NCBI GenBank assembly: GCA_025928335.1
Contig: JAICJQ010000030.1
Coordinates: 1 to 32,770, forward strand
Reading direction: 5' to 3'
Origin: Gemmatimonadaceae bacterium
GTDB lineage: Bacteria > Gemmatimonadota > Gemmatimonadetes > Gemmatimonadales > Gemmatimonadaceae
DNA: 32,770 nucleotides
The notes beneath the pieces were generated by a model. That model had not been told where the DNA came from. It made no database searches and saw nothing but the letters and a program-made list of their open reading frames with translations. Positions within the stretch are counted from its first letter, which is position 1; every line of letters starts with the position of its first letter. Made by a program: the position numbers and the translations under genes. This document shows, one piece after another, positions 889 to 30,639 of the stretch.

Positions 889-1374
889 TCAGCGATGACA
901 CGACCAATCCGTCGCGTCGTCGACCCTCAGCTCGCGCTCGTTATTCGTCGCGTCGGCCTCGTCGATCGTTCGGTCCGAATTCGCTCGGACCACCAGCCGT
1001 GCCCCGAGGCCGCGAAGTCGCGCCGCGATCTCGATGTGCGGAAAGGTGAACGTCGTCACCGGGTTTGCCGGTTGGAGATTGGCGCTGCCCTCGGCGAACA
1101 GCGCTCCTTGCTTCGGACCGCCGGGTAGAACGAGAAGAAGCCGGAGCGACACCGGCTTCTGAACGGGGCTCCCCCGTTGGCCCACGGTTACGCGAATGTC
1201 GTTGTCGGCGCTCACACACAGCCGGGCCGGGACGCCGTCACGCATCGCGACCACTTTGGTGACTTCGATGTCCACCGGCGGCGTAGTCCCGCGGCGCGGC
1301 TCCGCCTGTGCCCCGGCAAATCGGCCGCCCGAGACCACAAACGTGAGAAGAAAGATCCCTGGCAAGCGTTTCAT
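889..1374 (-). CDS. Small secreted CARDB-like beta-sandwich protein
   Basis: This encodes 161 residues. Residues 1-23 look like a cleavable signal peptide ending in AGAQA. The remainder reads as one beta-sandwich domain, and the C-terminal part has the pattern NSDRTIDEADATNNERELRV, which is typical of CARDB-type domains (a turn of the form 'D-E-x-x-E/A-x-N-N'). Such domains serve as adhesion or spacer modules in exported proteins, and no catalytic motif is visible. The gene is divergent from the sigma factor at 1469 (94-bp gap) and sits upstream of the peptidase gene on the same strand. The product is probably periplasmic or surface-located. Its specific role is unknown. I see no strong Shine-Dalgarno sequence before the ATG at 1374. 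Confidence 0.65.
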   Translation of the reverse strand: MKRLPGIFLLTFVVSGGRFAGAQAEPRRGTTPPVDIEVTKVVAMRDGVPARLCVSADNDIRVTVGQRGSPVQKPVSLRLLLVLPGGPKQGALFAEGSANLQPANPVTTFTFPHIEIAARLRGLGARLVVRANSDRTIDEADATNNERELRVDDATDWSCHR

Positions 1375-1468
1375 AAGGTGGCCGTCCGGAGGCTAGAGCG
1401 GTACGCTTGACGGCATCGAAGGTCTGAACGCAGCGAGGGAGCGTGTTTTCTCACGCCCGACGGCATCG

Positions 1469-2068
1469 GTGACAATGTCGATTGGAAGGGTCACCTCGAA
1501 CCGCGACCCGTTTGCCGGCGCAAGCGAGATGTCGCCGACGGATCGATCGGCGGCGATCGAGCGAGTGCTCGCACGTTTTGGCGAAGTCGCCCGCCGGGCC
1601 GGCGCCGCGCACGGACTCCAGGGGCAGGACCTCGACGAAGTCCTTCAGGAAGTGCGGATTCGACTCTGGCGCGTGGACGCGTCAGCGTCCGGCAAGCTCG
1701 ATGCGCTCAAGTCGTCGTACGTCTATCGAGCCGCGCTTTCGGCGGCAATCGACCTGCTGAGGCGACGCCGAGCACGGCGTGAGGACTCGCTGGATGACGA
1801 CGGCGATCACGACGCTCCCGCAACGTTCGCCGCACCTGCGTCCGCCGACGCCGACACGCTCGCCTCCGACGCCGGCCGCGCCGTCGAGACGGCGCTCACC
1901 ATGGTGGTCCCGAGCCGTCGCGCCGTAGTCCGCATGTACCTCGCGGGATACGAGCGGCAAGAGATCGCCTCATTGCTCGGATGGAGCGAGGCGAAAACTC
2001 GCAACTTGCTCTATCGCGGCCTGGACGATCTGCGGCACCTGTTGACCGCCAAAGGAATTCACCCATGA
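1469..2068 (+). CDS. ECF-like RNA polymerase sigma-70 family factor
   Basis: This encodes 199 residues from a GTG at 1469; ATG at 1475 or 1529 are alternatives. Region 2 is visible at about residues 33-105: a 'DLDEVLQEVRIRLWR' segment (about 54-68), then YVYRAALSAAIDLLRRRR, typical of sigma region 2.3/2.4. An acidic/Ala-rich linker follows (106-140). Region 4 spans about 145-192, with a helix-turn-helix around QEIASLLGWSEAKTRNLLYR. It lacks region 1.1 and region 3, as ECF factors do. It would direct RNA polymerase to an alternative promoter set. The stop overlaps the start of the next gene by 4 nt (ATGA), so the pair is probably translationally coupled, as sigma and anti-sigma genes often are. 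I see no good ribosome binding site just upstream, which leaves the exact start open. Confidence 0.85.
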   Translation: MTMSIGRVTSNRDPFAGASEMSPTDRSAAIERVLARFGEVARRAGAAHGLQGQDLDEVLQEVRIRLWRVDASASGKLDALKSSYVYRAALSAAIDLLRRRRARREDSLDDDGDHDAPATFAAPASADADTLASDAGRAVETALTMVVPSRRAVVRMYLAGYERQEIASLLGWSEAKTRNLLYRGLDDLRHLLTAKGIHP

Positions 2069-2730
2069 TCACCGAAACCGGAGATGCGTCGCTGCGCCGT
2101 GCGTACGACGCGCTTTTGCGCGCTCGCGCTGCGGACGGACATTCATCCGGCGCCGCGGCGCCCGTATCCCTAAAAAGCATTCTCGCGCTCGTCGAAGGAA
2201 CCGGCAGTGAGAATGAACGCCTCGCAACGCTCGATGCGCTGATGGCCGACGAGCAGGGCCGTCGAGAATTCGAGCTGCTTCGCGCTCTCTCGGCAACTCA
2301 GCACAGCGCGCCGCAGACGATCCGCAGCTGGCGACTTACCGCGACCGTCGCGACGCTCGCCGCGGCGGCGCTATTGATCGTCGTGATCCCCACAGTCCGA
2401 CGACCGCAACGAGTCGAAACCCCAGAACCGGTCCGCGACGCGTCGCGAAACGCGGTGCTGCTCTCGCCGCCCACCGAAGCGACCGTCGAGCAAAGCCGCA
2501 CGTTCCGATGGCGTGCGGTTCCCGACGCGCGCATTTACTCCGTCGAGGTCCTCACCGCCGCCGGCGCGCCGGTGTTCACGACGCGCGTCGCCGACACGAC
2601 GCTGACGTTGCCGGCCGATGTTCGTCTCGCCCCGGGTGTCGAGCACCGATGGTGGATCGTCACGGAATTCTCCGACGGCACTCAGCTGCGTTCGCCGCTT
2701 CGCCGACTCTTCGTGCGCGAGACGAAATAG
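2065..2730 (+). CDS. Single-pass membrane protein, putative anti-sigma factor with periplasmic Fn3-like domain
   Basis: This encodes 221 residues from the ATG at 2065, which overlaps the sigma-factor stop. Residues 1-90 are a cytoplasmic helical segment with no cysteine, so the usual zinc-binding HxxxCxxC motif of zf-HC2 anti-sigma factors is absent. Residues 91-110 form one transmembrane helix (AATVATLAA... type), followed by basic residues. Residues about 130-218 form an Fn3-like beta-sandwich, with FRWRAVPDARIYSVEVL and a later HRWWIVTEF. Position, coupling and topology make an anti-sigma role likely, but this is inference. Its 3' end overlaps the convergent TPR-CHAT gene by 49 bp. The same Fn3-like pattern recurs at the C-terminus of the secreted protein at 7806-9068. 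Confidence 0.7.
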   Translation: MITETGDASLRRAYDALLRARAADGHSSGAAAPVSLKSILALVEGTGSENERLATLDALMADEQGRREFELLRALSATQHSAPQTIRSWRLTATVATLAAAALLIVVIPTVRRPQRVETPEPVRDASRNAVLLSPPTEATVEQSRTFRWRAVPDARIYSVEVLTAAGAPVFTTRVADTTLTLPADVRLAPGVEHRWWIVTEFSDGTQLRSPLRRLFVRETK

Positions 2731-5585
2731 GCGGGCGCGAATAGCACGAGCACCAGCGCCGCGCCGCCGCCCCACTCTTCGACCTGCTGCGAGGCGGCTC
2801 GCTGTACCTGGCGCGATGGACGGAGTGCCGTTCGCACTCGCTCGTCGCCCGTCAGCGTAAACGCGGCCCATACACTCGGCGACATGCCGTCGTCGTATGC
2901 GCGGCGCTTCGCGCGGTGCAATGCGTCGCCCACTGAGATCCCGGTGGCGAGCTGCTGATAGAAACGATCGACGAACGACGCGGCGCTGCGGTCGCCGATC
3001 TGCCAGAGGGTGGCGACGACGGCGCTCGCCCCGGCCTCGAGGAAGGGTTCCGTCAATCCTTGGAGACCCTCGCCCCCCAGCACGACACCGCCGCCGGAGT
3101 TGCACGCCGAGAGCACAACGAGATTCGCCGAGAGTCGCAGCCCTACCAACTCGTCGACGCTGACGCGGCCATCCTCGCCGCCGCCCGGTGCGAGCAGGAG
3201 CGCGCTACGCAGAAGCGACCACTCGTCCACCTGGGCGTGCGTCGCGAAATGCAGCACGCCGACGTCGGCGAGACTTCCGCGGCGTAATCGTGATTCGCGC
3301 GCCTTCGAACCGGTCAGCACTTCGGCTACAGGAGCGTAATGCGCGATTTGCGCCGCCTCGGCGGCGGCGGCGGGCAGCCGCGGCGGCATCGAATCGGCCG
3401 CGCCATCTCCGATCTCGGCTCGATCTCGCCGCAACGCAACTCCAACCGGATCGCCAAAAGCGAGGAGCCGCGGCAGCGGCTCTCGTGGCGGCCCCGCCCA
3501 GAGCGCGGCCGCGGCCGATGCTGACGGAGCGAGCGAGATCGCATAGCGGCTGACGAGTGGCTTGCCGTCGCTCGCCCGAAGGACATCGAAGGGGATGCGA
3601 TGCAGGGGCCCGTCGGGGACAAACACCAGATGGGTTACGCCGCCCGGCAACAGTGCCAATGCCGCGTTGACGAATGCATCCCCGAGGCGACGCGCGAGTT
3701 CGACCGGGTTCGTTCCCGAGGCAACCAGAGCCGCGAACCGCTCGAGCTCCAACATGTGATCGTCCACCGGCTCGGCCACAGCAGCGGCGAGCCGGTCCTT
3801 CGTCAGCACAAAGACGGTGGTCGGCTCGCCGCCTCGTCCGGTGACGAACGCGAGCACCGCCGTCGATTCGGGAAGCACACGCCGCACGTCCGCGTCGAGG
3901 ATCGCGGCGGCAGGCCAAGCCGCCGCCGCCTCGGGCGCGAATGCCGTCCGTTGGGCCATGCTCTCGAGCAGCACACGTGCTCGTCGCTGCTCCGACAACC
4001 GGAACGCGGCCGCGGTGCGTCCGCCTTTTGCGATCAGTTGAATGGTCGTCGCGAAGCCGAGGTCGCGATCCCAGTCGATTTTCCTCGACTGCACTGCCGC
4101 TGCTCGCAACTCGCGCTCCGGCAGCGACACGCGCCACCGATCGATCACGGCGCCTGCCTCGTTCAGCTCCTGCTCGGCGCGTCCGATCTCACCACGCCGG
4201 GCATACACCTCGGCAAGCCGCGTAAGAATATCCGCGTGCTCGGCGGGTGACGACGCGCCGACCAATTTGTCTCGCGCGCGAAGGTACTGCTCGGCTTGCG
4301 GAAGTCTGTTTGCTTGCAGGGCAAGGACGGCGCGTGCGTAGGTGTCCTCCTGCCGCCACTCGTTCATGTGCAACGTACGCGACAGGGCCAATGCGCTGTC
4401 CAGCTGACGTGACGCGTCGACGAGATCGCCCTCGAACAGCGCGACGAAGGCGAGCTTGCCGCGAGCGTGCACCCCGTTCGTCGGCGCGATCGCCGGTGCG
4501 TCGCGCGCGACTTGCTCGTACGCCGCCCTGGCCGCGCCGGTCGCGCGATTGAGCAGCGCGACATCTCCCTCGTGCATCCTCGCGTCGAGCGCGCCCCACC
4601 GGTCTCCGCTGCGCGCGAACAGTGCCGACGCGGTGCGCGCGTAGGCGCCGGACGCCGGCAGATCGCCGAAGGTGAGCGCGAGATCAGACAGACCGAGCGA
4701 CGCCCACGCCGCGGCAGCGACAGTTCCCGTCTGTCGCCCGAGCGTCAGCGCTTCGGTGAGCGCGGCACGCGCCGGCGCGAACTGGCCCACTGAATAAAGC
4801 ACATATCCTTGCCACTGCCGCGACACGGCGAGCGCGGAGAGATTGCGCGTCGCCCGCTGCAAGTCGGCGACTTCGCCGAAGGTCGCGAGGGCGCTGTCAA
4901 TCATCGTGCGTCGTTCATAGTCTTGCGCCAACGCGGCGAGACAAGCCGCCGCGCCGCGACGATTGCCCGCGTGAATCGCCGAATCGGCGGTCGGGCGCGC
5001 AAGCCGCGCGACGTCGGGATCGGCGCGGCGCACCCGCGCGACGAGCGCGTTGCACGCAATCCACGCGCGCAGCCAGTCGTCATCCCGCGGGACGGCGCGC
5101 ATCGCATTGTTATAGACGTGAAGTGCCGAATCGACGCTCACCGTCCTACTGACGACAATGCCGAGCGTGCCGAGCGCTGTCGCCGCACCGGCGGAAGGCG
5201 CTGAGCCCAGCGCGACGATCGCGCGTCGGAGAAACGGCTCCGCTTCGGCGAGGCGCGCTTCTTGGGCGCGCAGGGCACCGGCTCCGAGTAGGCCATATGC
5301 GAACGCGGCGTTGCGCGCGCTGTCGGCATGAAGAAGGATCGCGTACTCGCGCTCAGCATCGGCGTCGCGATAGGCGAGCCGGTCGACCGTGGCCAGTGCC
5401 AAGGTCCGACGCTCCGCCGCGATGTCGTTCTTGGGCCGCTCACCCTCCCATGCTGCGCGCTCCGCATCCGCGCGGCCCGCCTCCACGGCCGCCTGAATCC
5501 GCCGCACGAGCGCCTCGGCGCTGTCAGCAGACAGATGGGGCGATGGCCAGCCGGCGAAGAACACGACGAGGAGCGCAACGATCAT
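2682..5585 (-). CDS. Membrane-associated TPR-CHAT (caspase-like) protein
   Basis: This encodes 967 residues from the ATG at 5585; the frame stays open to 5792, but the extra N-terminus would overlap the divergent gene. Residues 1-14 form a short hydrophobic stretch (MIVALLVVFFAGW), a possible anchor or uncleaved signal. Residues about 25-600 are repeated helical pairs of TPR type (for example AEPFLRRAIVALG, RAALTEALTLGRQTG). The C-terminal CHAT domain covers about 640-930. It contains VFVPDGPLHRIPFDVL, the catalytic histidine in HFATHA (His783) and the catalytic cysteine in LSACNSG (Cys828), so the dyad is intact. A hydrophobic helix (about 940-958) follows the CHAT domain, with a basic tail. 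CHAT domains are caspase-related cysteine peptidases. The gene lies next to a sigma/anti-sigma pair, which suggests a regulatory proteolysis role. Confidence 0.87.
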   Translation of the reverse strand: MIVALLVVFFAGWPSPHLSADSAEALVRRIQAAVEAGRADAERAAWEGERPKNDIAAERRTLALATVDRLAYRDADAEREYAILLHADSARNAAFAYGLLGAGALRAQEARLAEAEPFLRRAIVALGSAPSAGAATALGTLGIVVSRTVSVDSALHVYNNAMRAVPRDDDWLRAWIACNALVARVRRADPDVARLARPTADSAIHAGNRRGAAACLAALAQDYERRTMIDSALATFGEVADLQRATRNLSALAVSRQWQGYVLYSVGQFAPARAALTEALTLGRQTGTVAAAAWASLGLSDLALTFGDLPASGAYARTASALFARSGDRWGALDARMHEGDVALLNRATGAARAAYEQVARDAPAIAPTNGVHARGKLAFVALFEGDLVDASRQLDSALALSRTLHMNEWRQEDTYARAVLALQANRLPQAEQYLRARDKLVGASSPAEHADILTRLAEVYARRGEIGRAEQELNEAGAVIDRWRVSLPERELRAAAVQSRKIDWDRDLGFATTIQLIAKGGRTAAAFRLSEQRRARVLLESMAQRTAFAPEAAAAWPAAAILDADVRRVLPESTAVLAFVTGRGGEPTTVFVLTKDRLAAAVAEPVDDHMLELERFAALVASGTNPVELARRLGDAFVNAALALLPGGVTHLVFVPDGPLHRIPFDVLRASDGKPLVSRYAISLAPSASAAAALWAGPPREPLPRLLAFGDPVGVALRRDRAEIGDGAADSMPPRLPAAAAEAAQIAHYAPVAEVLTGSKARESRLRRGSLADVGVLHFATHAQVDEWSLLRSALLLAPGGGEDGRVSVDELVGLRLSANLVVLSACNSGGGVVLGGEGLQGLTEPFLEAGASAVVATLWQIGDRSAASFVDRFYQQLATGISVGDALHRAKRRAYDDGMSPSVWAAFTLTGDERVRTALRPSRQVQRAASQQVEEWGGGAALVLVLFAPAYFVSRTKSRRSGERS

Positions 5586-5697
5586 GAGGCCCAACTCGCG
5601 GTGGTGAGCTTTCGAATCTACGAATCGCCTCGCGTTTGCCAAGAACGTCGGCAAAACGTTAGTGAGAACATGCGACGACCGAGTGCGTTCAAGAAAC

Positions 5698-7797
5698 GTG
5701 AGGAAGCGAGCATTGGCGCCCGTCCTCGCCGCCGCGCTCTCATCGCTGCGTCTCGACGCCCAGGCCGCGCCGGCCGAGACGCCGGCGGACACGCTGCGGA
5801 TTCAGGCGGAATGGAACGTCGCGCGGCTGCAACCACGCGACGGACAGCTCACGTTCACGATGAGTCGCTTGCCAAGCGCCGGCGACGGACAGCTCGTCGT
5901 GGTCGTGGGGCGATCGGATCTCTCGGCGCTGCTCGACGTCGCGGGCACGCGCGTCCGCTTGCCGCTGTACGGTCAGCGTTTGGACGCCGGAGAGAACGAG
6001 GTTCGAGCCTACCTTGCACGCACCGACGGGGCGTGGCTCGAGATTGGACGCTTCCCGCTGCGCCTTCTCGACCGCGCCGGATTCGAGTCGTTCGCGATGC
6101 GGCCCAAACTCGACCTGCAATCCAGTGGCCAGTTGCACGCACACGCGGCGTCCGGCGCTCCGCAAGCGACCGGCCGCGGCGACACGTATCAGGATCTCGC
6201 GCTCAACGGGGGTCTCGACGGAACGCTGAGCCGCGACGGCTGGAATTCGACGGTGCAAGGGCTTGTCGCGGGCGCCACGCGGGAGCAAGCGCGCCTCCGC
6301 GCCGCTCAGCTCGGACCGCGCGCGCCCGAGTTGGATCTCGCCTCGTACGCCATCCACCTCACGCGCCCGGGAGTTGGCTTTGATGTCGGTCACCTCTCGA
6401 TCGGCGACGACCGACTCCTCGTCAACCAGTTTCGCAGCCGTGGACTGTCGGCGAGCGTGACGCTGCCGCATGGTTTGCAACTGGGAGGGGCCGGCACCGC
6501 GGGATCGGAGATCGTCGGATGGGACGACCCCTTCGGCATCGCACGACCGTCGCACCGCCTGGTCCTCGGCACGATCGGCTTCGAGGCGCTTCCATCGCAT
6601 CCGGGAATGCTACGTCTTGCCCTCTCGACCCTCGACGGCTCGAGGCAGCCGACGCCGAGCTTTCAACAGGGCGCGGTGACCGATCGTGAGGAGAGCCGCG
6701 GCACCGGCGCACAGCTCATCGCCGGCGATCCGAGCGGTCACGCGCATCTCACCCTCGGGATCGCGCGCAGCCGTTTCACCAACCCGACCGACTCGGCGTT
6801 GAGCGGCGGTTCGACGTTGGTCGCTGTCCGACCGGAATCGCGCAGCGCGCGCTTCGGCGAGTTGCGCGTGGACGTGTTGCGCGGCGCGCAAATCGGCCCG
6901 GCACCGACGACGCTCGCCGTCACGGCCCGTCATCAGCGCGTCGATCCGCAATATCGGAGCATCGGCGCCGCGCTGCAGGCGGATCGCGACGAAGACGCCA
7001 TCGAAACGACCGGCTCGATCGACGCACTTCAGGTTCAGTATTCGCTCGGCCGGGCACACGACAATCTCGCTCGGATCTCATCGCTGCTCACGACCCGGAC
7101 GCGCACGCACTCGCTCAACGCGGCGCTTCCGATCGCCCAGCTCCTGCGTTCGTCACCCGGCGCCTGGTGGTGGCCGCAAGCGACCGCCACCTGGCTCGTC
7201 GTCGATCAGCGCGGCGACCGCGTTCCGCCCAACGGCGGCTTCCGGCTGGCTTCACAGGTCCCTAATCAGCATACCAGAAACCTTGCGACCGCGCTCGCGT
7301 GGCAGCGTGCGGCGGGCAGTCTTTCGCTGCACTTCAACCGGGCAGGCGTCGACAATCGGCCGTCTGATGGAACGCCGACCGACCTCGTCACCGATGTCGC
7401 CGGCGCGACGTTGGCCCTGACGATGTCGCCGGCGCTCACGCTGAGCACCGACCTGTCGAGCGAGACCGTCGATGATGTCGCGCGCGGTTTCCGCGCTCAT
7501 ACGCGTCGCATCGGCACCCAGGCCGATTGGCGTCCCGTTGGCCACACGACATTCACTGGAACACTGTCCCTCGCCGGCAACGAAGACCCCCCGGCGACGC
7601 GCCGTGCCCACAACGTCGACGTGCAGCTCGAGGCGTCACAGGGGTTCAACCTGTACGCCCGCCCGCGGGACGGGTCACAGGCGCGGATATTCGTGCGCTA
7701 TACGTTGAGCGACGCACAGCTCCGCCTCGGTCAGACCCTGCAACCGACGCTTCGACAATGGGCGATGAACGGCGGCTTCTCTCTCCGGCTCTTCTGA
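5698..7797 (+). CDS. Outer-membrane beta-barrel protein of unknown function
   Basis: This encodes 699 residues from a GTG at 5698, chosen because the signal peptide (MRKRALAPVLAAALSSLRLDAQA) begins exactly there. Upstream in-frame starts would add a charged leader. After a roughly 120-residue N-terminal beta-rich domain, the protein consists of alternating amphipathic strands with many Gly, Thr and aromatic residues. It ends in a strand with terminal Phe (FSLRLF), the usual recognition signature for beta-barrel assembly. Cysteines are absent. I do not recognise the specific family. It is divergent from the TPR-CHAT gene (112 bp between starts) and is followed after 8 nt by a secreted protein, with which it is probably co-transcribed. 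A transport or adhesin-secretion role is possible but not shown. Confidence 0.65.
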   Translation: MRKRALAPVLAAALSSLRLDAQAAPAETPADTLRIQAEWNVARLQPRDGQLTFTMSRLPSAGDGQLVVVVGRSDLSALLDVAGTRVRLPLYGQRLDAGENEVRAYLARTDGAWLEIGRFPLRLLDRAGFESFAMRPKLDLQSSGQLHAHAASGAPQATGRGDTYQDLALNGGLDGTLSRDGWNSTVQGLVAGATREQARLRAAQLGPRAPELDLASYAIHLTRPGVGFDVGHLSIGDDRLLVNQFRSRGLSASVTLPHGLQLGGAGTAGSEIVGWDDPFGIARPSHRLVLGTIGFEALPSHPGMLRLALSTLDGSRQPTPSFQQGAVTDREESRGTGAQLIAGDPSGHAHLTLGIARSRFTNPTDSALSGGSTLVAVRPESRSARFGELRVDVLRGAQIGPAPTTLAVTARHQRVDPQYRSIGAALQADRDEDAIETTGSIDALQVQYSLGRAHDNLARISSLLTTRTRTHSLNAALPIAQLLRSSPGAWWWPQATATWLVVDQRGDRVPPNGGFRLASQVPNQHTRNLATALAWQRAAGSLSLHFNRAGVDNRPSDGTPTDLVTDVAGATLALTMSPALTLSTDLSSETVDDVARGFRAHTRRIGTQADWRPVGHTTFTGTLSLAGNEDPPATRRAHNVDVQLEASQGFNLYARPRDGSQARIFVRYTLSDAQLRLGQTLQPTLRQWAMNGGFSLRLF

Positions 7798-7805
7798 GCT
7801 TTCTC

Positions 7806-9068
7806 ATGCGCCCAATGAACCGATCGCGTATTGCCGGATGCGGCGCCCTGCTGTTTGGCGCGCCGCTCGCCGCGCAGATCACGGTGAATCCGACGGGCGT
7901 GAATGTCGCGAGCCAGGGCGCGACGACGGTCTTTCTGACATTCGGCGGATTGTCGGCGGACCAGATCCCGGTCGAGGCATTTTGGTGCGGCGAGCTCGTC
8001 GACGCGCGGCCTGACATCGGCCTGCGCTGCGACCCATCGACCTTGTTCGGTCGCCTGCCGCTCCGCTTCGATCTGTCGCAGTCGAGCGGCACCGCTGGAT
8101 TCACCGACGTCATGTCGATTCCCCCGTCCGTTGCCCGGCGCGCCTGGCAGGCAGCGGCCGATGGCAAACCAGCGGCGTTCTTCTACGTGCGCCGCTTCGC
8201 GAATCGGCGCGGCGGGCCCGACGTCTTCGTCGCGGTAACTTGTCGTCTCACGGCCGGTGGCGCCGGGGTGCCGTTCGCGCTCACCGACGTCCGCCTCGCG
8301 TTCGACGCCGAGTTGCCCGTGATCGCGGTGGCGCAGGCGACTCCGGCGCCAGGACTTCATGCGGACATTACTTATACCGGGACCGGCCGGCTGCGCGGAC
8401 GTTGGGAAGTCGTGCGACCGGGCGAGGAGCCGCCGGGCGAGAAGGATCTTCTGCCGGAAGCATCGCTCCCGCTCGAGCAGAGAGGGACGCAGCATCGCTA
8501 TACGCCGCTGTCGCGTTTCAACGTGTTTCTCCCGCCGACCGGTCAGGTGCGAGTCCCGGGCCCGGATCCGGCGCTGCTGCCGCGGGACGTGGACGGCACG
8601 TACCTGGTGCTGATGCGCGTCGAAGCGGCCGACGATCATGACAGCGAGTCCGATCTTACTGCGGTTGGCGCAGGCATTGGCACGGTGTCGAGCGGCGCTG
8701 TCGCGGGCTTCGCTCTTCCGACGCTGCGGTATGTCGTTGGCAGCGGTGTCGACCCGCGCTCGGCGGAGGACGGCAATCGCCTGATGCTGCTCCGTCCGTC
8801 GGCCGGAACGTCATCGCCGGCAGCGCTTACGTTTGCATGGGCACCGGTACCGTTGGCGAATCGCTATCGCCTCGAGGTGCAGACCACCGACGGCGCGTCG
8901 CTCTTCGAGGCGCTCGTCCCGGGCACGGTCGCGCTCTACCGTCCACCACCGGTCTTCGTCGAACGTGCCGGCGCGTCGCCTCTCCGCTGGCGCGTGCGAG
9001 CCGAAGACCTGAGGGGTCGCGTACTCGCCGTCAGTGCGTGGCGCTTGCTTACGCTTGCGCCACCGTGA
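7806..9068 (+). CDS. Secreted protein with C-terminal Fn3-like domain
   Basis: This encodes 420 residues from the ATG at 7806 (a second ATG is at 7815). Residues 1 to about 24 are a signal peptide ending APLAAQ. The next part begins ITVNPTGVNVASQGATTVFL, an Ig-like or BACON-like strand pattern, followed by a domain with a Cys pair (about 61 and 76). The last 90 residues form an Fn3-like module: FAWAPVPLANRYRLEVQ, then a later LRWRVRAEDLRGR and WRLLTL. It closely parallels the C-terminal domain of the putative anti-sigma factor at 2065-2730. The protein follows the beta-barrel gene by 8 nt, so it is probably exported with or through that partner, or attached to it. No enzymatic motif is visible. 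It ends just before a bidirectional terminator. Confidence 0.65.
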   Translation: MRPMNRSRIAGCGALLFGAPLAAQITVNPTGVNVASQGATTVFLTFGGLSADQIPVEAFWCGELVDARPDIGLRCDPSTLFGRLPLRFDLSQSSGTAGFTDVMSIPPSVARRAWQAAADGKPAAFFYVRRFANRRGGPDVFVAVTCRLTAGGAGVPFALTDVRLAFDAELPVIAVAQATPAPGLHADITYTGTGRLRGRWEVVRPGEEPPGEKDLLPEASLPLEQRGTQHRYTPLSRFNVFLPPTGQVRVPGPDPALLPRDVDGTYLVLMRVEAADDHDSESDLTAVGAGIGTVSSGAVAGFALPTLRYVVGSGVDPRSAEDGNRLMLLRPSAGTSSPAALTFAWAPVPLANRYRLEVQTTDGASLFEALVPGTVALYRPPPVFVERAGASPLRWRVRAEDLRGRVLAVSAWRLLTLAPP

Positions 9069-9162: not shown

Positions 9163-10407
9163 TTACGGAGCGATGAGCGAGACCGTTACCTTCGTATATG
9201 TCGGACTCGTCGTGACCGCCGTGACCTGTGGGTTGGTGCGCGAATCGCCTACCCACGCCTCGAAGATGTGCGTGACCGGGGCCAGTCTGTTGACGCAACC
9301 GCCGTTGTTCACCGAACGCACGCGGATGATCGCTGACGTCTGCCCCCTCGGGAACACGAAGAATTGGAAGGGTGCGGCGGCGTTGTACGGTGCTTCGGCG
9401 ACCGCCTGCGTGAAACATGCGGCCGTCGTCATGCGCCACGTGATCACCTGATTCGCATTAGCCGGCGCTGAAAGCTTGATCGTGAAGTCGATCGGATTGC
9501 CGGCTGTTGTGCTCGACGGATTCGGCGAAGCCTGCGCGGCGAATCCCTGGCCGGGCGTCGGCACCACGACGAGGGTCAGTGTGTTCGAGCGTTGGGGATT
9601 GTTCGGATCGGTGATCGTGATCGTGCTCGTGCTCTGCGTCGTCACCGCCCGGATTTTTGCGACGTCGAAGGTGAACGCAAGCGCCGCGGTCCCCGTCGGC
9701 GGCTGCGCGACCGCCTGATTCTCCGTCAGGAACGCCGGGAGTCCGGATACGGTGTACTTCATCCCGGGAACGGGGAATGGAAAGTTGACCGAAACGGTGC
9801 TCGCCGGACGGACTTTTACGTTGAGAACGTTGCTCGTGCAGGTCGTCTGGTCCTGGCCTGCTCCCGGGGGCAGCTGGATGGTGAGTTTGAGGTCCTGATT
9901 CGACGGGGTGATCGAGCCGGTCTTCACGATGCAAGGAAGCTGGCTCGGGTCGAGCACGCCGTTCGTCGTCCACGTCGTGCTGATCGCCGGAATTGCCCGA
10001 AGCGCGATCTGCTGGGTCGACAGATCGCCAAGCGGCATCTTGAACGAGATAGTTGCATTGGCGTTGGCACCGAGCGTGATCGGCGAGTTCACGCGAACAA
10101 CAGCAGACCCGGTGTTCCCACAGCCGCGCGTCAAGTTCTCCGGACCGCTGTGTCGCGACACGACGGAAGCGCTGAAGCCGCCCGGACCCGTAAAGCTGAA
10201 GCCAGTGGTTGGATCGGCGAGATCCACCGAGTTCCCCCACACCTCGAACTGGATGTTGGGTCCCGCGAGCACTGTCAGCGTCTGCCCTGCCGTGATCACC
10301 TTCGCGCTGCACGATCCGGCGGCCGTCACGAACTCGATCCCCGCCTGCGCCGTCGCCATCGGGAGTGACGCGAGCGCCAGGGACATGACCGAAACTCTCT
10401 TGAGCAT
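9163..10407 (-). CDS. Secreted Ig-like repeat protein of unknown function
   Basis: This encodes 414 residues. The start at 10407 is fixed by a strong Shine-Dalgarno sequence (AGGAGG at 10415-10420, 7 nt upstream) and by the signal peptide that follows (LKRVSVMSLALASLPMATAQA). The mature protein is rich in Thr, Ser, Pro, Asn and Val, and has several beta-sandwich segments. Examples are an N-terminal part around TAGQTLTVLAGPNIQFEVWG and a later part around PNPSSTTAGNPIDFTIKLSA. Six or so scattered cysteines may pair in the periplasm. No catalytic motif is seen, so a surface or adhesin-like role is likely but unproven. It is divergent from the Ig-like gene at 10545 across a 137-bp region that holds an 18-bp palindrome. 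A bidirectional terminator follows it. Confidence 0.65.
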   Translation of the reverse strand: MLKRVSVMSLALASLPMATAQAGIEFVTAAGSCSAKVITAGQTLTVLAGPNIQFEVWGNSVDLADPTTGFSFTGPGGFSASVVSRHSGPENLTRGCGNTGSAVVRVNSPITLGANANATISFKMPLGDLSTQQIALRAIPAISTTWTTNGVLDPSQLPCIVKTGSITPSNQDLKLTIQLPPGAGQDQTTCTSNVLNVKVRPASTVSVNFPFPVPGMKYTVSGLPAFLTENQAVAQPPTGTAALAFTFDVAKIRAVTTQSTSTITITDPNNPQRSNTLTLVVVPTPGQGFAAQASPNPSSTTAGNPIDFTIKLSAPANANQVITWRMTTAACFTQAVAEAPYNAAAPFQFFVFPRGQTSAIIRVRSVNNGGCVNRLAPVTHIFEAWVGDSRTNPQVTAVTTSPTYTKVTVSLIAP

Positions 10408-10451
10408 GGTGTTTCCTCCTGTTGCGGCTCTAACGCGCGCACCATGCAATC

Positions 10452-10469
10452 CTTCTCACGCGTGAGAAG
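10452..10469. promoter_or_regulatory. 18-bp perfect palindrome between divergent secreted-protein genes
   Basis: CTTCTCACG is followed directly by its reverse complement CGTGAGAAG. The site lies 45 bp from the start at 10407 and 76 bp from the start at 10545, so one dimeric regulator could control both genes. An isolated half-site (TTCTCACGC) also occurs about 20 bp upstream of the sigma-factor gene at 1449-1456. The regulator is unknown. Confidence 0.5.
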
Positions 10470-10544
10470 AACGCGCGGTTCGTTTCGTTTTGTAGAACGG
10501 CGACCCAGCCATCGGACCGAAGTCCATCGCGCGGAGGACGGATC

Positions 10545-11273
10545 ATGTTCAGTAGCGGAAGTGATATGCGGCCCTATTGGAAGACGTGGATGCACACAAC
10601 GGCAGGACGTTTGCTCGTCGCAGCGCCGATCGCCGCGGTCGTCGGGATCGGCGCGCGGGACGTGGCCTCGTTCAAACTCTCCCCTACTTCCATAGCATCC
10701 GGCGGCACCTCGACGGGAACCGTTATCGTGAGCGGATTGTGTAAGAGCTGCGTCGCGCTCGTCTCGCTCACGAGCAGCACACCGTCCGTCGCCACCGTTC
10801 CGGGGACGGTGACGACTTCGAACGGCATCTCCGGTTCGAGTGCCACGTTCACAGCGCATGCGGTGAGCGGGGCCGCTGGCTGTTCGCTCATTACGGCAAA
10901 GGCTGGGACATCGACTCAGAGTGTCCTGCTCACCGTGCAGCCGGCCGCAGCATCGGGCCTTTCGCTCTCGCTCAAAACGCCGAGCACGGTCGGGGGTGGC
11001 GTCGACTCCGGCTTCGTATCACTGCCGCCAAGAAGCACAACGCTGAGTTCCAATCCGGTGGCGCAGTTGTCGACGAGCGATGTGAACATCGCCACGGTGC
11101 CGGCGAGCGTCACGCTCAAGCCCAACTTCATCGAAGGCGGCATCATCATCTACAAGGCCGCGTTCCCGATATCGACCAGGGATAGCGGCCGGAATACCTG
11201 TGCTGGTATCACCGCGACGTCGGGAACGTCGAAAGCACAGACACTACTTCAGCTCTTTACGGCGAGCGGTTGA
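10545..11273 (+). CDS. Secreted Ig-like (Big-type) protein
   Basis: This encodes 242 residues from the ATG at 10545, supported by GGAGG at 10533-10537 (7-nt spacing). The N-terminus has a hydrophobic signal or anchor segment (GRLLVAAPIAAVVGIGA, about residues 21-37). The rest is beta-rich, with LSPTSIASGGTSTGTVIVSG and later STPSVATVPGTVT and SDVNIATVPASVTL. These are typical of bacterial Ig-like (Big) folds in which substitutions and comparisons are listed as 'V-A-T-V-P'. Four cysteines are present, including a CKSC pair. No catalytic motif is seen. It is divergent from the secreted gene at 9163-10407 and upstream of the PadR gene on the same strand, which has its own promoter. A cell-surface role is likely; the exact function is unknown. 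Confidence 0.6.
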   Translation: MFSSGSDMRPYWKTWMHTTAGRLLVAAPIAAVVGIGARDVASFKLSPTSIASGGTSTGTVIVSGLCKSCVALVSLTSSTPSVATVPGTVTTSNGISGSSATFTAHAVSGAAGCSLITAKAGTSTQSVLLTVQPAAASGLSLSLKTPSTVGGGVDSGFVSLPPRSTTLSSNPVAQLSTSDVNIATVPASVTLKPNFIEGGIIIYKAAFPISTRDSGRNTCAGITATSGTSKAQTLLQLFTASG

Positions 11274-27799: not shown

Positions 27800-28222
27800 A
27801 TGGAACCCATGGACATGCTCGCCACCGGAATCGTGATCGGCGCCGTCATTGCGCTGCTCATCGTCGCCGTGCTCACACCGAGGTTCGCGCGCCGCATGCG
27901 CACCGAGGGAGCGCTGCAGAGCCGAGCGATCGTGCGAGGCCAGATCTACGAGCAGCTCGTGCCCTACTTGCCGGGCTTTCGATTCAATCCGAAGGACGCC
28001 CAATTCCTCGGCCGTCCAGTCGACTTCGTCGTTTTCGACGGACTGGACGAGGGCGAGCTACGGCGGATCGTGTTCGTCGAGGTAAAGACCGGCGGCGCCA
28101 AGCTGACGACCCGCGAGCGGCTGGTGCGCAACGCGATACGCGAGGGGAACGTCGAGTGGGCCGAGATTCGCGCCGACGCGAGTCTCCAGCTTTCACCGCC
28201 CCGGACGACGACGAGAACCTGA
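27800..28222 (+). CDS. Membrane-anchored Holliday-junction-resolvase-related endonuclease
   Basis: This encodes 140 residues from the ATG at 27800. Residues 8-25 form one transmembrane helix (TGIVIGAVIALLIVAVL). The remainder matches the family of endonucleases related to archaeal Holliday junction resolvases: QIYEQLVPYLPGF, NPKDAQFLGRPVDFVVFDG and IVFVEVKTGGAKLTTRER. The PD-(D/E)XK catalytic set is visible as Asp75 and the Glu94-x-Lys96 of EVK. The usual form of this family also has an N-terminal hydrophobic helix. Its biological substrate is unknown. It reads away from the csp2 promoter and is 80 nt upstream of the kinase gene, possibly in the same operon. AGAGG lies about 10 nt upstream of the start. 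Confidence 0.82.
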   Translation: MEPMDMLATGIVIGAVIALLIVAVLTPRFARRMRTEGALQSRAIVRGQIYEQLVPYLPGFRFNPKDAQFLGRPVDFVVFDGLDEGELRRIVFVEVKTGGAKLTTRERLVRNAIREGNVEWAEIRADASLQLSPPRTTTRT

Positions 28223-28302
28223 CCGCATCCTTGGCAGCGATGTTCGCGACGACCATTTTGGCGGCGTCGGCGTTGCCTGAAAACGAGCTGGTGGCTCAAC
28301 GA

Positions 28303-30639
28303 ATGAACGGGCTCACACAACTGCACGCGGCGTTGTCGGGCCGCTACGAGGTCGAGCGCGAGGTCGGCGCGGGCGGGATGGCGATCGTTTATCTCGCCCG
28401 CGACCTTCGGCACGACCGCAAAGTCGCGCTCAAGGTCCTGCGCCCGGAGCTCTCGGCCATACTCGGCGGCGAACGCTTTCTCGCCGAGATCCGTACGACG
28501 GCCAATTTGCAGCATCCCCACATTCTCCCGCTTCACGACTCGGGCGAGGCGGACGGGATGGTGTACTACGTCATGCCGTTCGTCGAAGGCGAGTCGCTTC
28601 GCGACCGGTTGCGGCGGGAGAAACACTTGCCCGTCGAAGACGCGGTGCGCATCGCACGAGAGGTCGCGAGTGCACTCGACTACGCGCACCGGCATGGTGT
28701 GATTCACCGCGACATCAAGCCGGAAAACATCATGCTCCATGACGGCAGCCCGATGGTCATGGACTTTGGCATCGCGCTCGCGGCGTCGCGCTCCGAGGGC
28801 GGCGCTCGGCTGACGGAAACGGGGCTGTCGCTCGGCACGCCGCAATACATGGCGCCGGAACAAGCGATGGGCGAGCGCGATATCAGCAGCCGAGCCGACA
28901 TCTACGCACTCGGCTGCGTGCTGTATGAGAGCCTCGTCGGTGAGGCTCCGTTTCTCGGACCGACACCGCAGGCGATCATTGCGCGCCTCCTGACAGAGCC
29001 ACCGCGCGGGCTGACGGCGCAACGAAACACTATTCCGCAGCACGTCGAAGCGGCGACGTTGCGCGCGCTGCAAAAGCTTCCCGCCGACCGATTCACCACG
29101 GCGGCGCAGTTTGCGGACGCTCTCGCCGGTCCAACGGTCGGCGCGACAGCCGCCGCGCCGGCGGTGAGTGTCGCTTCCCAGCGCACGCGTTCATTCAATT
29201 GGGTTCCGCTCAGCGTCACGCTTGCCGCGTCGGTGGCGCTGACGAGCCTCGTTTGGTGGCGTATCGAAGCGGCGCATCGTGTGTCGCCGGCTGTCGCCCG
29301 ATTCGCCTTCAGCATACCAGAGGACCAGAGACCGGCGAGCGGCCTGGCCCACTCGCTTGCCGTGTCGCCGGATGGTTCACAGATCGTGTACGTGGCGAGC
29401 AATCGGCTCTATCGGCGGTCGCTCGCTTCGCTCGACGTTCAACCGATTTCCGGCTCGGATGCGGGCGGGATCTCCAATCCCGTGTTTTCGCCTGACGGAC
29501 AATCGGTCGCGTACTACTCGAACGGTGATGGAGCTATCCGACGTATCGCGACCATGGGTGGAGTTCCCACTGTTGTCGCCACCACCTTCGCCTCCGGCTT
29601 TTTCGGAGGAATGAGCTGGTCAGGAGACTTCATTGTCTATGCGGCTCCTGGGACGATTATCCGCGTCCCAGCCTCCGGCGGCCGCATGGATACCATCGCC
29701 GTGCTCAAGGCCACCGAGACCGCCGAGGGGCCGCAGCTGCTCTCCGACGGCAAGACGGTGCTGTACACGCTCGCGGCAACAGGGGAGCCCGATCGGTGGG
29801 AGAAAGCACAACTCATCGCGCAGAAGATCCACTCGAGCGACCGGAAGGTTCTGCTGCAACCGGCAACCGATGCGTGGTACGTGCCCACCGGTCACATCGT
29901 GTACGGTATCGGCGGGTCGCTGTTTGCCGTCCCATTCGATGCAAAAAATCTCGAGGTGAAGGGTGGCCCCACTCCCGCTGTCGAGGGGGTGCTGCGCGAC
30001 GCCGCCGGTGCCACGGGAGTCCTGCATTTCGCGTTTTCCGCCAGCGGTTCGCTGGCCTACATCCCAGGGCCCTCCACCGGGCCGCTGACCACTCGACGAG
30101 ACGTCGCACTCACCGATCGACAGGGCAACGTACAGCGATTCAACTTGCCGGCCGGTTTCTACGATTATCCTCGCGTGTCCCCCGACGGCAAGCGAATCGT
30201 CATGGGCGGCAGCGAAGGGAAAGACGCGGCGATTTGGATATATGATCTCGACGGCAAGAGTGCGATCCGGCGCCTGACGCTCAGTGGAAAGGATCGTTTT
30301 CCCATATGGTCGGCTGACGGACTCTGGATCGCCTTTCAGTCGGATCGTGACGGTCCGTCGTCGATCTACCGACAACGCGCCGACGGAAGCGGGACGGTCG
30401 AGCGGCTGACCACGGCTGACGCGGGTACGTCGCATGTTCCAGAGTCCTGGTCGCCGCGCGACGACGGCTTCCTCTATAGCGTGGTGAAAGGACTCGACGT
30501 CAGCCTCTGGTGGTACTCGCTCGCGGACAAGAAAGCAACGCCGTTCGGCGACGTGAAAAACGCCAAGGGCTCGATGACCAACGCCAGTTTTTCACCCGAC
30601 GGGCGTTGGGTGGCATACACCTCGGACGCGGAACTCTAG
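28303..30639 (+). CDS. Ser/Thr protein kinase with TolB/WD40-like propeller, prematurely ended
   Basis: This encodes 778 residues from the ATG at 28303; earlier in-frame starts overlap the nuclease gene or lack signals. The N-terminal kinase domain (about 14-270) is complete: GAGGMAIVY loop, catalytic Lys44 in VALKVL, HRDIKPEN (Asp137), DFG (Asp154) and YMAPEQ. A transmembrane helix follows at about 298-320. The extracytoplasmic part is a beta-propeller with repeated 'SPDG..I.Y' blades (VSPDGSQIVYV, FSPDGQSVAYY, VSPDGKRIVMG, FSPDGRWVAYT). The architecture is that of bacterial receptor kinases. An in-frame TAG at 30637 ends the protein in a blade. The same frame, with one more stop (TAA at 30649), encodes a well-conserved remainder to 31029. 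The N-terminal kinase may still function. Confidence 0.87.
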   Translation: MNGLTQLHAALSGRYEVEREVGAGGMAIVYLARDLRHDRKVALKVLRPELSAILGGERFLAEIRTTANLQHPHILPLHDSGEADGMVYYVMPFVEGESLRDRLRREKHLPVEDAVRIAREVASALDYAHRHGVIHRDIKPENIMLHDGSPMVMDFGIALAASRSEGGARLTETGLSLGTPQYMAPEQAMGERDISSRADIYALGCVLYESLVGEAPFLGPTPQAIIARLLTEPPRGLTAQRNTIPQHVEAATLRALQKLPADRFTTAAQFADALAGPTVGATAAAPAVSVASQRTRSFNWVPLSVTLAASVALTSLVWWRIEAAHRVSPAVARFAFSIPEDQRPASGLAHSLAVSPDGSQIVYVASNRLYRRSLASLDVQPISGSDAGGISNPVFSPDGQSVAYYSNGDGAIRRIATMGGVPTVVATTFASGFFGGMSWSGDFIVYAAPGTIIRVPASGGRMDTIAVLKATETAEGPQLLSDGKTVLYTLAATGEPDRWEKAQLIAQKIHSSDRKVLLQPATDAWYVPTGHIVYGIGGSLFAVPFDAKNLEVKGGPTPAVEGVLRDAAGATGVLHFAFSASGSLAYIPGPSTGPLTTRRDVALTDRQGNVQRFNLPAGFYDYPRVSPDGKRIVMGGSEGKDAAIWIYDLDGKSAIRRLTLSGKDRFPIWSADGLWIAFQSDRDGPSSIYRQRADGSGTVERLTTADAGTSHVPESWSPRDDGFLYSVVKGLDVSLWWYSLADKKATPFGDVKNAKGSMTNASFSPDGRWVAYTSDAEL

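Follow-up and report, generated by a model that had tools for sequence, protein, structure and literature searches.

We analyzed a 32,770-nucleotide stretch of DNA (contig JAICJQ010000030.1 of assembly GCA_025928335.1, from here on the window) from a Gemmatimonadaceae bacterium, where it is contig 92 in a draft genome of 4.52 Mb and 79% completeness. The window encodes an extracytoplasmic function (ECF) sigma factor, a single-pass membrane protein that is an anti-sigma factor by homology, and a protein with tetratricopeptide repeats (TPR) and a CHAT protease domain. All three are genuine genes, and the association of such sigma genes with CHAT genes goes beyond chance. We give somewhat better than an even chance to the reading that they form a split version of the DdvS-DdvA type of envelope-signal switch, with the CHAT protein as the candidate periplasmic site-1 protease.

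Recurrent association of sigma, anti-sigma and CHAT genes

The original prediction described an ECF-like sigma gene overlapping a membrane-protein gene by 4 nt, and this was borne out. The sigma open reading frame (ORF) matched Sigma70_r4_2 above the Pfam cut-off (E 3.5e-7; region 2 was under the cut-off) and the NCBIfam sigma70-ECF model TIGR02937 (E 1e-15), and the membrane-protein gene, which starts with an ATG at 2065, overlaps the sigma stop by 4 nt. The true sigma start may be an ATG near 1529 (60 nt downstream of the GTG of the listed ORF, at its residue 21), which is likelier because the alignment of close relatives mostly begins at about residue 22-26 and the predicted -10 element ends at 1454. 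The CHAT gene adjoins the pair as predicted, but its strand had been left unstated: it lies on the minus strand, convergent with the pair, and the 3' ends of the CHAT and membrane-protein genes overlap by 49 nt (2682-2730). A single operon of the three genes was therefore ruled out in the window.

By itself, the window membrane protein matched no Pfam or NCBIfam model, and a FecR-type regulator was ruled out because these scans found no FecR domain in it. We aligned it with 13 relatives, all of them products of genes that lie downstream of a related sigma gene, and read the alignment by eye. In nine of the 14 members, the domain that the first 80 residues of the window protein match kept the zinc anti-sigma signature (C or H-P..E, then DHVM-x-C-x2-C, then an EFELLRA-like motif), and zf-HC2 passed the Pfam cut-off in the L119 homologue only, with three others of the ten tested below it. 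The zinc ligands were partly or wholly lost in the window protein, in L094, L098 and L101, and in the first L099 protein. By homology the membrane protein is thus a relative of the zinc anti-sigma factors, in keeping with its earlier description as anti-sigma-like.

In the AlphaFold2 (AF2) model of this protein (mean predicted local distance difference test score (pLDDT) 74.5; predicted template modeling score (pTM) 0.42), residues 1-80 formed the four helices of a degenerate zinc-anti-sigma domain. They were followed by a predicted membrane helix at about 92-106 (low confidence), a stalk at 107-137 with pLDDT below 50, and an FN3-like domain at about 138-217, whose top Foldseek match was the Fn3-like structure 3mpc (E 9.3e-4). 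A search of PDB sequences with the anti-sigma profile returned FN3-like and unrelated chains only, and no known anti-sigma.

Five relatives consist of the zinc-anti-sigma-type domain alone and are soluble proteins of about 80 residues. Such proteins follow close sigma relatives at L104:7849-8112, L107:8374-8592, L108:1818-2066 and L110:9262-9501, and those of L104 and L110 gave no Pfam match above cut-off. At L099 (G156:C376), one CHAT gene is flanked by two sigma/anti-sigma pairs, one with a membrane anti-sigma and the other with a soluble anti-sigma of 82 residues.

CHAT genes were sought in 198 genomes of the class, and matches at E<=1e-10 were found in 44; at most four candidates were scored per genome, so the tally may miss genes. 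The regions of all 79 listed places were taken, with the window itself serving as one, and gave 73 CHAT genes after one place without a CHAT domain was dropped, fragments were merged and one extra gene was found. Sigma and anti-sigma genes were detected by profiles grown from the window proteins, which distant members may escape, and distances were measured from ORF to ORF, where starts may be too long.

The results showed a sigma gene within 1.6 kb of 38 of the 73 CHAT genes, upstream on the same strand in 28 cases and convergent in 10; 16 of the 73 lie near contig ends. In the same loci, sigma matches numbered 36 in the 194.3 kb beside CHAT genes versus 3 in the 288.5 kb farther off, a 17.8-fold density. 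A recognized anti-sigma homologue was present in 30 of the 38 (23 of 28 same-strand cases, one of them the fusion in L116, and 7 of 10 convergent cases). Gene neighborhood had been named as a check on the original prediction, and the three families do co-locate recurrently. Anti-sigma and CHAT genes overlap by 4 nt in L119, L125, L131 and L132; another protein lies in between at L155 and L176, and there is no called gene in between at L164. L155 also carries a gene that looks caspase-like by eye (2721-3569, minus strand), two genes away from the sigma gene that is convergent with CHAT.

Both CHAT genes of the window genome adjoin a sigma gene; the second (L140) follows its sigma, with a 309-residue protein in between that was not recognized as an anti-sigma. 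The two cassettes within the genome differ more from each other (distances 0.81 and 0.66) than the window cassette does from one of another genus (0.30 and 0.33). Across 34 of the 38 loci, sigma and CHAT distances covaried (Mantel r 0.61, 0 of 2000 permutations, genome relatedness not removed). The genes of the window are convergent and overlap at their 3' ends only, as chance neighbors might, but the recurrence, the covariation and the promoter shared between them (see below) make a chance arrangement close to negligible in probability.

The presence of a convergent CHAT gene followed the type of anti-sigma. Among loci of the sigma clade, it stood beside seven of nine membrane anti-sigmas with an FN3-like domain (window included) versus none of five soluble ones of about 80 residues; L109 and L111 (no anti-sigma found) and L105 (contig end) were left out. 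One of the soluble pairs, in L099, is the divergent upstream neighbor of a CHAT gene. At L116 (5220-9500, minus strand), one ORF contains a zinc-finger-like anti-sigma, a hydrophobic segment, an FN3-like domain, TPR and CHAT. It is a DdvA-like natural fusion in this class, and it physically ties CHAT to an anti-sigma ectodomain.

Patterns around the dyad found 555 named CHAT loci, of which the best 79 were considered. A sigma match lay within 4 kb in 19 of these 79, with none in the loci named as cyanobacteria, and the nearest named relatives of the window CHAT among the 79 belong to Gemmatimonadaceae and other Gemmatimonadota. The order sigma, membrane protein, CHAT was read in Myxococcus, Acidobacteria, a deltaproteobacterium, Calditrichaeota and Krumholzibacteriota.

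Dyad, fold and predicted location of the CHAT protein

The 967-residue protein matched Pfam CHAT (PF12770) with E 1.7e-64, and its predicted dyad proved intact, with His783 within LHFATHA and Cys828 within LSACNSG. In alignment A3 of ten close CHAT proteins the His was invariant and the Cys was absent in one; the His was kept in all 10 convergent cases. The closest CHAT relative, L094 (G148:C2:1370863-1373759), is split over two frames near residue 830.

The AF2 model of the window CHAT (pLDDT 87.9, pTM 0.83) had as its best Foldseek match DdvA, 8rw5 (E 5.9e-16, TMq 0.46, root-mean-square deviation 18), followed by separase and the Csx29 complex 8eey chain B (E 6e-15). Since the deviations are large and the E-values close, this ranking should not be over-read. 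Searches of PDB sequences with the single window protein gave no match, and a CHAT profile retrieved mainly TPR proteins, plus 8rot.

The N-terminus of the window CHAT is export-signal-like (MIVALLVVFFAGWPSPHLSA), and its C-terminus has a membrane segment and then the basic tail RTKSRRSGERS. These hydrophobic ends place the protein probably outside the cytoplasm. In relatives the start is signal-peptide-like or, by eye, carries a lipoprotein-type cysteine. For 61 complete CHAT ORFs we scored export as an 11-residue stretch with a mean hydropathy of at least 2.2. Within the first 45 residues, 28 of the 61 had such a stretch, compared with 25% of 600 other gene calls and none of 62 sigma ORFs; within the first 110, 37 of the 61 had one (no background computed for this length). 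Over-long ORF starts lower the CHAT figure, so predicted export has good support in the window and moderate support across the family.

This location bears on the precedent of the original prediction, the type III-E craspase, which according to PMC10028731 combines the TPR-CHAT protease Csx29, a sigma inhibitor that it cuts and an ECF-like sigma. The likeness to Csx29 held for the TPR-CHAT fold, but DdvA is the closer precedent and a cytosolic partner did not fit a CHAT that is probably exported. A craspase-like cytosolic switch, which the similar fold and the cleaved inhibitor would favor, is very improbable here: the CHAT carries an export signal and a C-terminal membrane segment, its membrane partner has an FN3-like ectodomain, and the window contains no CRISPR-type direct repeats at the settings used. 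Being probably outside the cytoplasm, the CHAT protein would make its cut in the periplasmic stalk of the anti-sigma. PADLOC, applied to 13 window proteins, gave hits to kinase, permease-like and other models, with no CRISPR or cyclic-oligonucleotide-based antiphage signaling system (CBASS) set, and Cas7-11 was absent from the subset of window ORFs scanned.

A predicted promoter motif and the neighboring genes

Among 7-mers found in at least 5 of 32 upstream regions of sigma and CHAT genes of the clade, GTGAGAA was the most enriched. It occurred in nine regions versus 0.99 expected (either strand; in three of the nine it lay on the strand opposite the gene), in a context where ACG, with A, T or C before it, stood at a constant distance of 17 nt. 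Five of the nine TTCTCAC sites of the window had AACG at 17 nt and one at 12, with none at other gaps from 8 to 29. Genome-wide, AACG-N16-18-TTCTCAC gave 14 matches, five of them in the window, versus 3 for the reversed control. A looser pattern, drawn from the same loci, gave 17 matches in 375 kb of clade loci versus 0 for the reversed pattern; eight lay ahead of a sigma or CHAT gene in the correct orientation and two preceded secreted genes of the window. In ten genomes, WACG-N17-TTCTCAS had 55 matches versus 22 in the control, and 13 were at sigma loci (five in G000, three in G148, one each in G156, G174, G090 and G106, and one on the opposite strand in G069).

We infer from co-location and conservation that the motif, which resembles the sigma-E type, belongs to this sigma. 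The sigma then probably drives its own gene pair, the CHAT gene and two secreted proteins in the window; CHAT is counted as a predicted target because it has its own predicted sigma-type promoter (Table 1). The fifth match, at 1343-1370, is doubtful as a promoter because it lies inside coding sequence. A wide regulon was rejected, as no clear gene start follows the remaining three AACG-N17-TTCTCAC matches in the genome (C62, C129 and C220). The palindrome TTCTCACGCGTGAGAA was dropped as an operator, since with the AACG blocks upstream it reads as two overlapping divergent promoters.

Table 1. Genes and predicted promoters of the window
Feature	Position	Strand	Remarks
ECF sigma gene	1469-2068	+	listed start GTG
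Membrane anti-sigma gene (by homology)	2065-2730	+	ATG at 2065
TPR-CHAT gene, 967 residues, His783/Cys828	2682-5585	-	Pfam CHAT
Predicted promoter of sigma/anti-sigma pair, AACG-N17-TTCTCAC	1427-1454	+	motif; also upstream of sigma in L094
Predicted CHAT promoter, AACG-N17-TTCTCAC	5662-5689	-	motif; about 77 nt before ATG; also in L094
Predicted promoter of 10545-11273	10432-10459	+	overlaps its divergent twin (TTCTCACGCGTGAGAA)
Predicted promoter of 9163-10449	10462-10489	-	motif match
Fifth pattern match, doubtful promoter	1343-1370	-	within first codons of 889-1374; same place in L094
161-residue protein, signal-peptide-like start, CARDB-like by eye	889-1374	-	divergent from sigma
Protein with signal-peptide-like start, Ig-like by eye, predicted target	9163-10449	-	
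Repeat protein, bacterial Ig-like by eye, predicted target	10545-11273	+	
Protein with C-terminal FN3-like part resembling that of the anti-sigma	7785-9068	+	
711-residue ORF, possibly an envelope protein (by eye)	5662-7797	+	divergent from CHAT

The Pfam scan gave no match for 889-1374 and 10545-11273, and none over the cut-off for 9163-10449 and 5662-7797. A homologue of the 889-1374 protein occupies the same place in L094 (E 1.7e-29). The product of 7785-9068 aligned with anti-sigma residues 69-205 (29% identity, E 1.8e-5), and its orthologue adjoins CHAT in L094. Downstream of CHAT on the same strand, L114, L115, L117, L127 and L131 encode proteins with Big_5 or Big_2, RCC1 or beta-propeller repeats; these are of the same general sort as the Ig-like predicted targets of the window. 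Elsewhere in the window, the large protein of 28156-30639 matched PADLOC PD-T4-6 kinase models (best E 1.1e-90), probably through a general Ser/Thr kinase domain.

The proposed switch and related systems

In the split switch that we propose, the N-terminal zinc-anti-sigma-type domain of the membrane protein would retain the ECF sigma in the cytoplasm, as homology suggests. The FN3-like domain of the anti-sigma and the separate TPR-CHAT protein are both predicted to lie outside the inner membrane, with the window CHAT tethered through its C-terminal segment. A signal sensed by the TPR/CHAT or FN3-like domains would activate CHAT, and we infer that active CHAT would cut the flexible periplasmic stalk of the anti-sigma, after which an RseP-kind site-2 protease would release the sigma. 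The freed sigma would then act on its own gene pair, CHAT and the two neighboring secreted proteins through the predicted AACG-N17-TTCTCAC promoters. An M50 gene is present in the window genome.

Several observations weigh against this switch. The presence of M50 says little, because all 14 control genomes have M50 proteases, and the scoring found a C-terminal membrane segment in just 5 of the 61 CHAT ORFs. The membrane anti-sigmas with an FN3-like domain of L095 and L103 have no adjoining CHAT. Of the 17 matches to the looser promoter pattern, two fell in coding starts and five elsewhere; WACG-N17-TTCTCAS was absent from the sigma cassettes of G110, G158 and G178; and the promoter stands upstream of CHAT in the window and L094 only, two of the seven convergent cassettes with a recognized anti-sigma. 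Nineteen of the 73 CHAT genes, with 1.6 kb present on both sides, have no sigma gene nearby, and close relatives (L096, L102 and L113) are among them. In 15 of the 73 CHAT relatives the catalytic His is lost and the Cys kept, so cutting is not the rule everywhere.

The residue in place of the His is Tyr, Ala, Ser, Phe or Gln in these 15 proteins (L131, L117, L116, L128, L114, L135, L122, L115, L127, L119, L125, L126, L158, L167 and L177). Such losses, like the reportedly incomplete active site of DdvA, would suit a CHAT that is a non-cutting periplasmic sensor or scaffold, binding the anti-sigma and altering its stability. We regard this as improbable for the window, given the His of every convergent case and the Cys of all but one of the A3 relatives. 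Because His loss affected 11 of 28 same-strand cassettes and 0 of 10 convergent ones, cleavage may be real in this clade, with other CHATs keeping binding alone.

The sigma-less CHAT genes point to a different alternative, in which CHAT is an output: a sigma-controlled exported peptidase that processes neighboring surface proteins, and the anti-sigma is relieved in another way, such as a signal binding the FN3-like domain together with general proteases. The predicted sigma-type promoter of the window CHAT, the convergent gene order, and the Ig-like, RCC1 or propeller character of the predicted targets and of the genes after CHAT in some operons agree with it. However, CHAT goes with the membrane anti-sigmas that bear an FN3-like domain and not with the soluble form, and the L116 fusion and DdvA link CHAT to the anti-sigma itself. 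We consider the output reading less likely than the proposed switch, though of appreciable probability.

The known system nearest to the proposed switch is DdvS-DdvA of Myxococcus xanthus (8rot, 8rw5), where the structure titles describe DdvA as a transmembrane anti-sigma. As in the window, an ECF sigma is encoded next to a membrane anti-sigma, the pairing in the window being assigned by homology, and the TPR-CHAT fold is shared, with DdvA the top Foldseek match. The cytoplasmic part of DdvA is reportedly a zinc helical bundle and its periplasmic part a TPR-CHAT, and cleavage of the CHAT type, with RseP acting next, is said to have been proposed for it; the active site of DdvA is reportedly incomplete, whereas both His and Cys are present in the window CHAT. 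The window CHAT is a separate, convergent gene and the anti-sigma has an FN3-like domain in place of CHAT, although the same-chain arrangement does occur in the relative L116. The window system is thus a variant of the DdvS-DdvA kind and not a member of it, because CHAT is not in the same chain as the anti-sigma. PMC4374960 describes DdvS as active once DdvA is inactivated, and PMC12288465 describes it as controlling a defense island with cyclic-oligonucleotide and type III-B CRISPR systems; in contrast, the predicted targets in the window are the sigma, CHAT and secreted proteins.

The craspase (Csx29, Csx30 and CASP-sigma) shares with the window a TPR-CHAT protein, a sigma inhibitor, an ECF-like sigma and the same logic, but it is RNA-guided via Cas7-11, whereas no CRISPR-type repeats were seen in the window, the CHAT has the look of an exported protein and the inhibitor sits in the membrane. 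RseA/DegS/RseP (sigma-E) also has a membrane anti-sigma, with a periplasmic first cut and an intramembrane second cut as proposed here. The DegS family is a PDZ-trypsin protease, unlike the candidate for the first cut in the window, which is a caspase-fold CHAT. FecI-FecR cell-surface signaling likewise joins an ECF sigma, a single-pass regulator and local targets, but the window membrane protein lacks a FecR domain and has zinc-anti-sigma ancestry. We found no paper on a sigma/anti-sigma/CHAT cassette in searches of the open-licence PMC literature.

More broadly, and only tentatively, CRISPR-free periplasmic TPR-CHAT site-1 proteases might be widespread and free ECF sigmas in trans from zinc-type anti-sigmas. 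DdvA would then be a fused derivative, and the craspase would be a relative with the same protease/anti-sigma/sigma logic that works in the cytosol under RNA guidance; in the lineage that includes the window and L094, the circuit would be a self-amplifying loop, because the sigma would also drive the protease gene. If this is true, control of anti-sigmas by a caspase-fold protease would be a common mechanism that faces the envelope, rather than a peculiarity of CRISPR. With its intact dyad on a protein of its own, the split form would allow a direct test of cleavage in trans, which is hard with the fused DdvA, and the promoter motif offers a ready reporter and points to the likely outputs.

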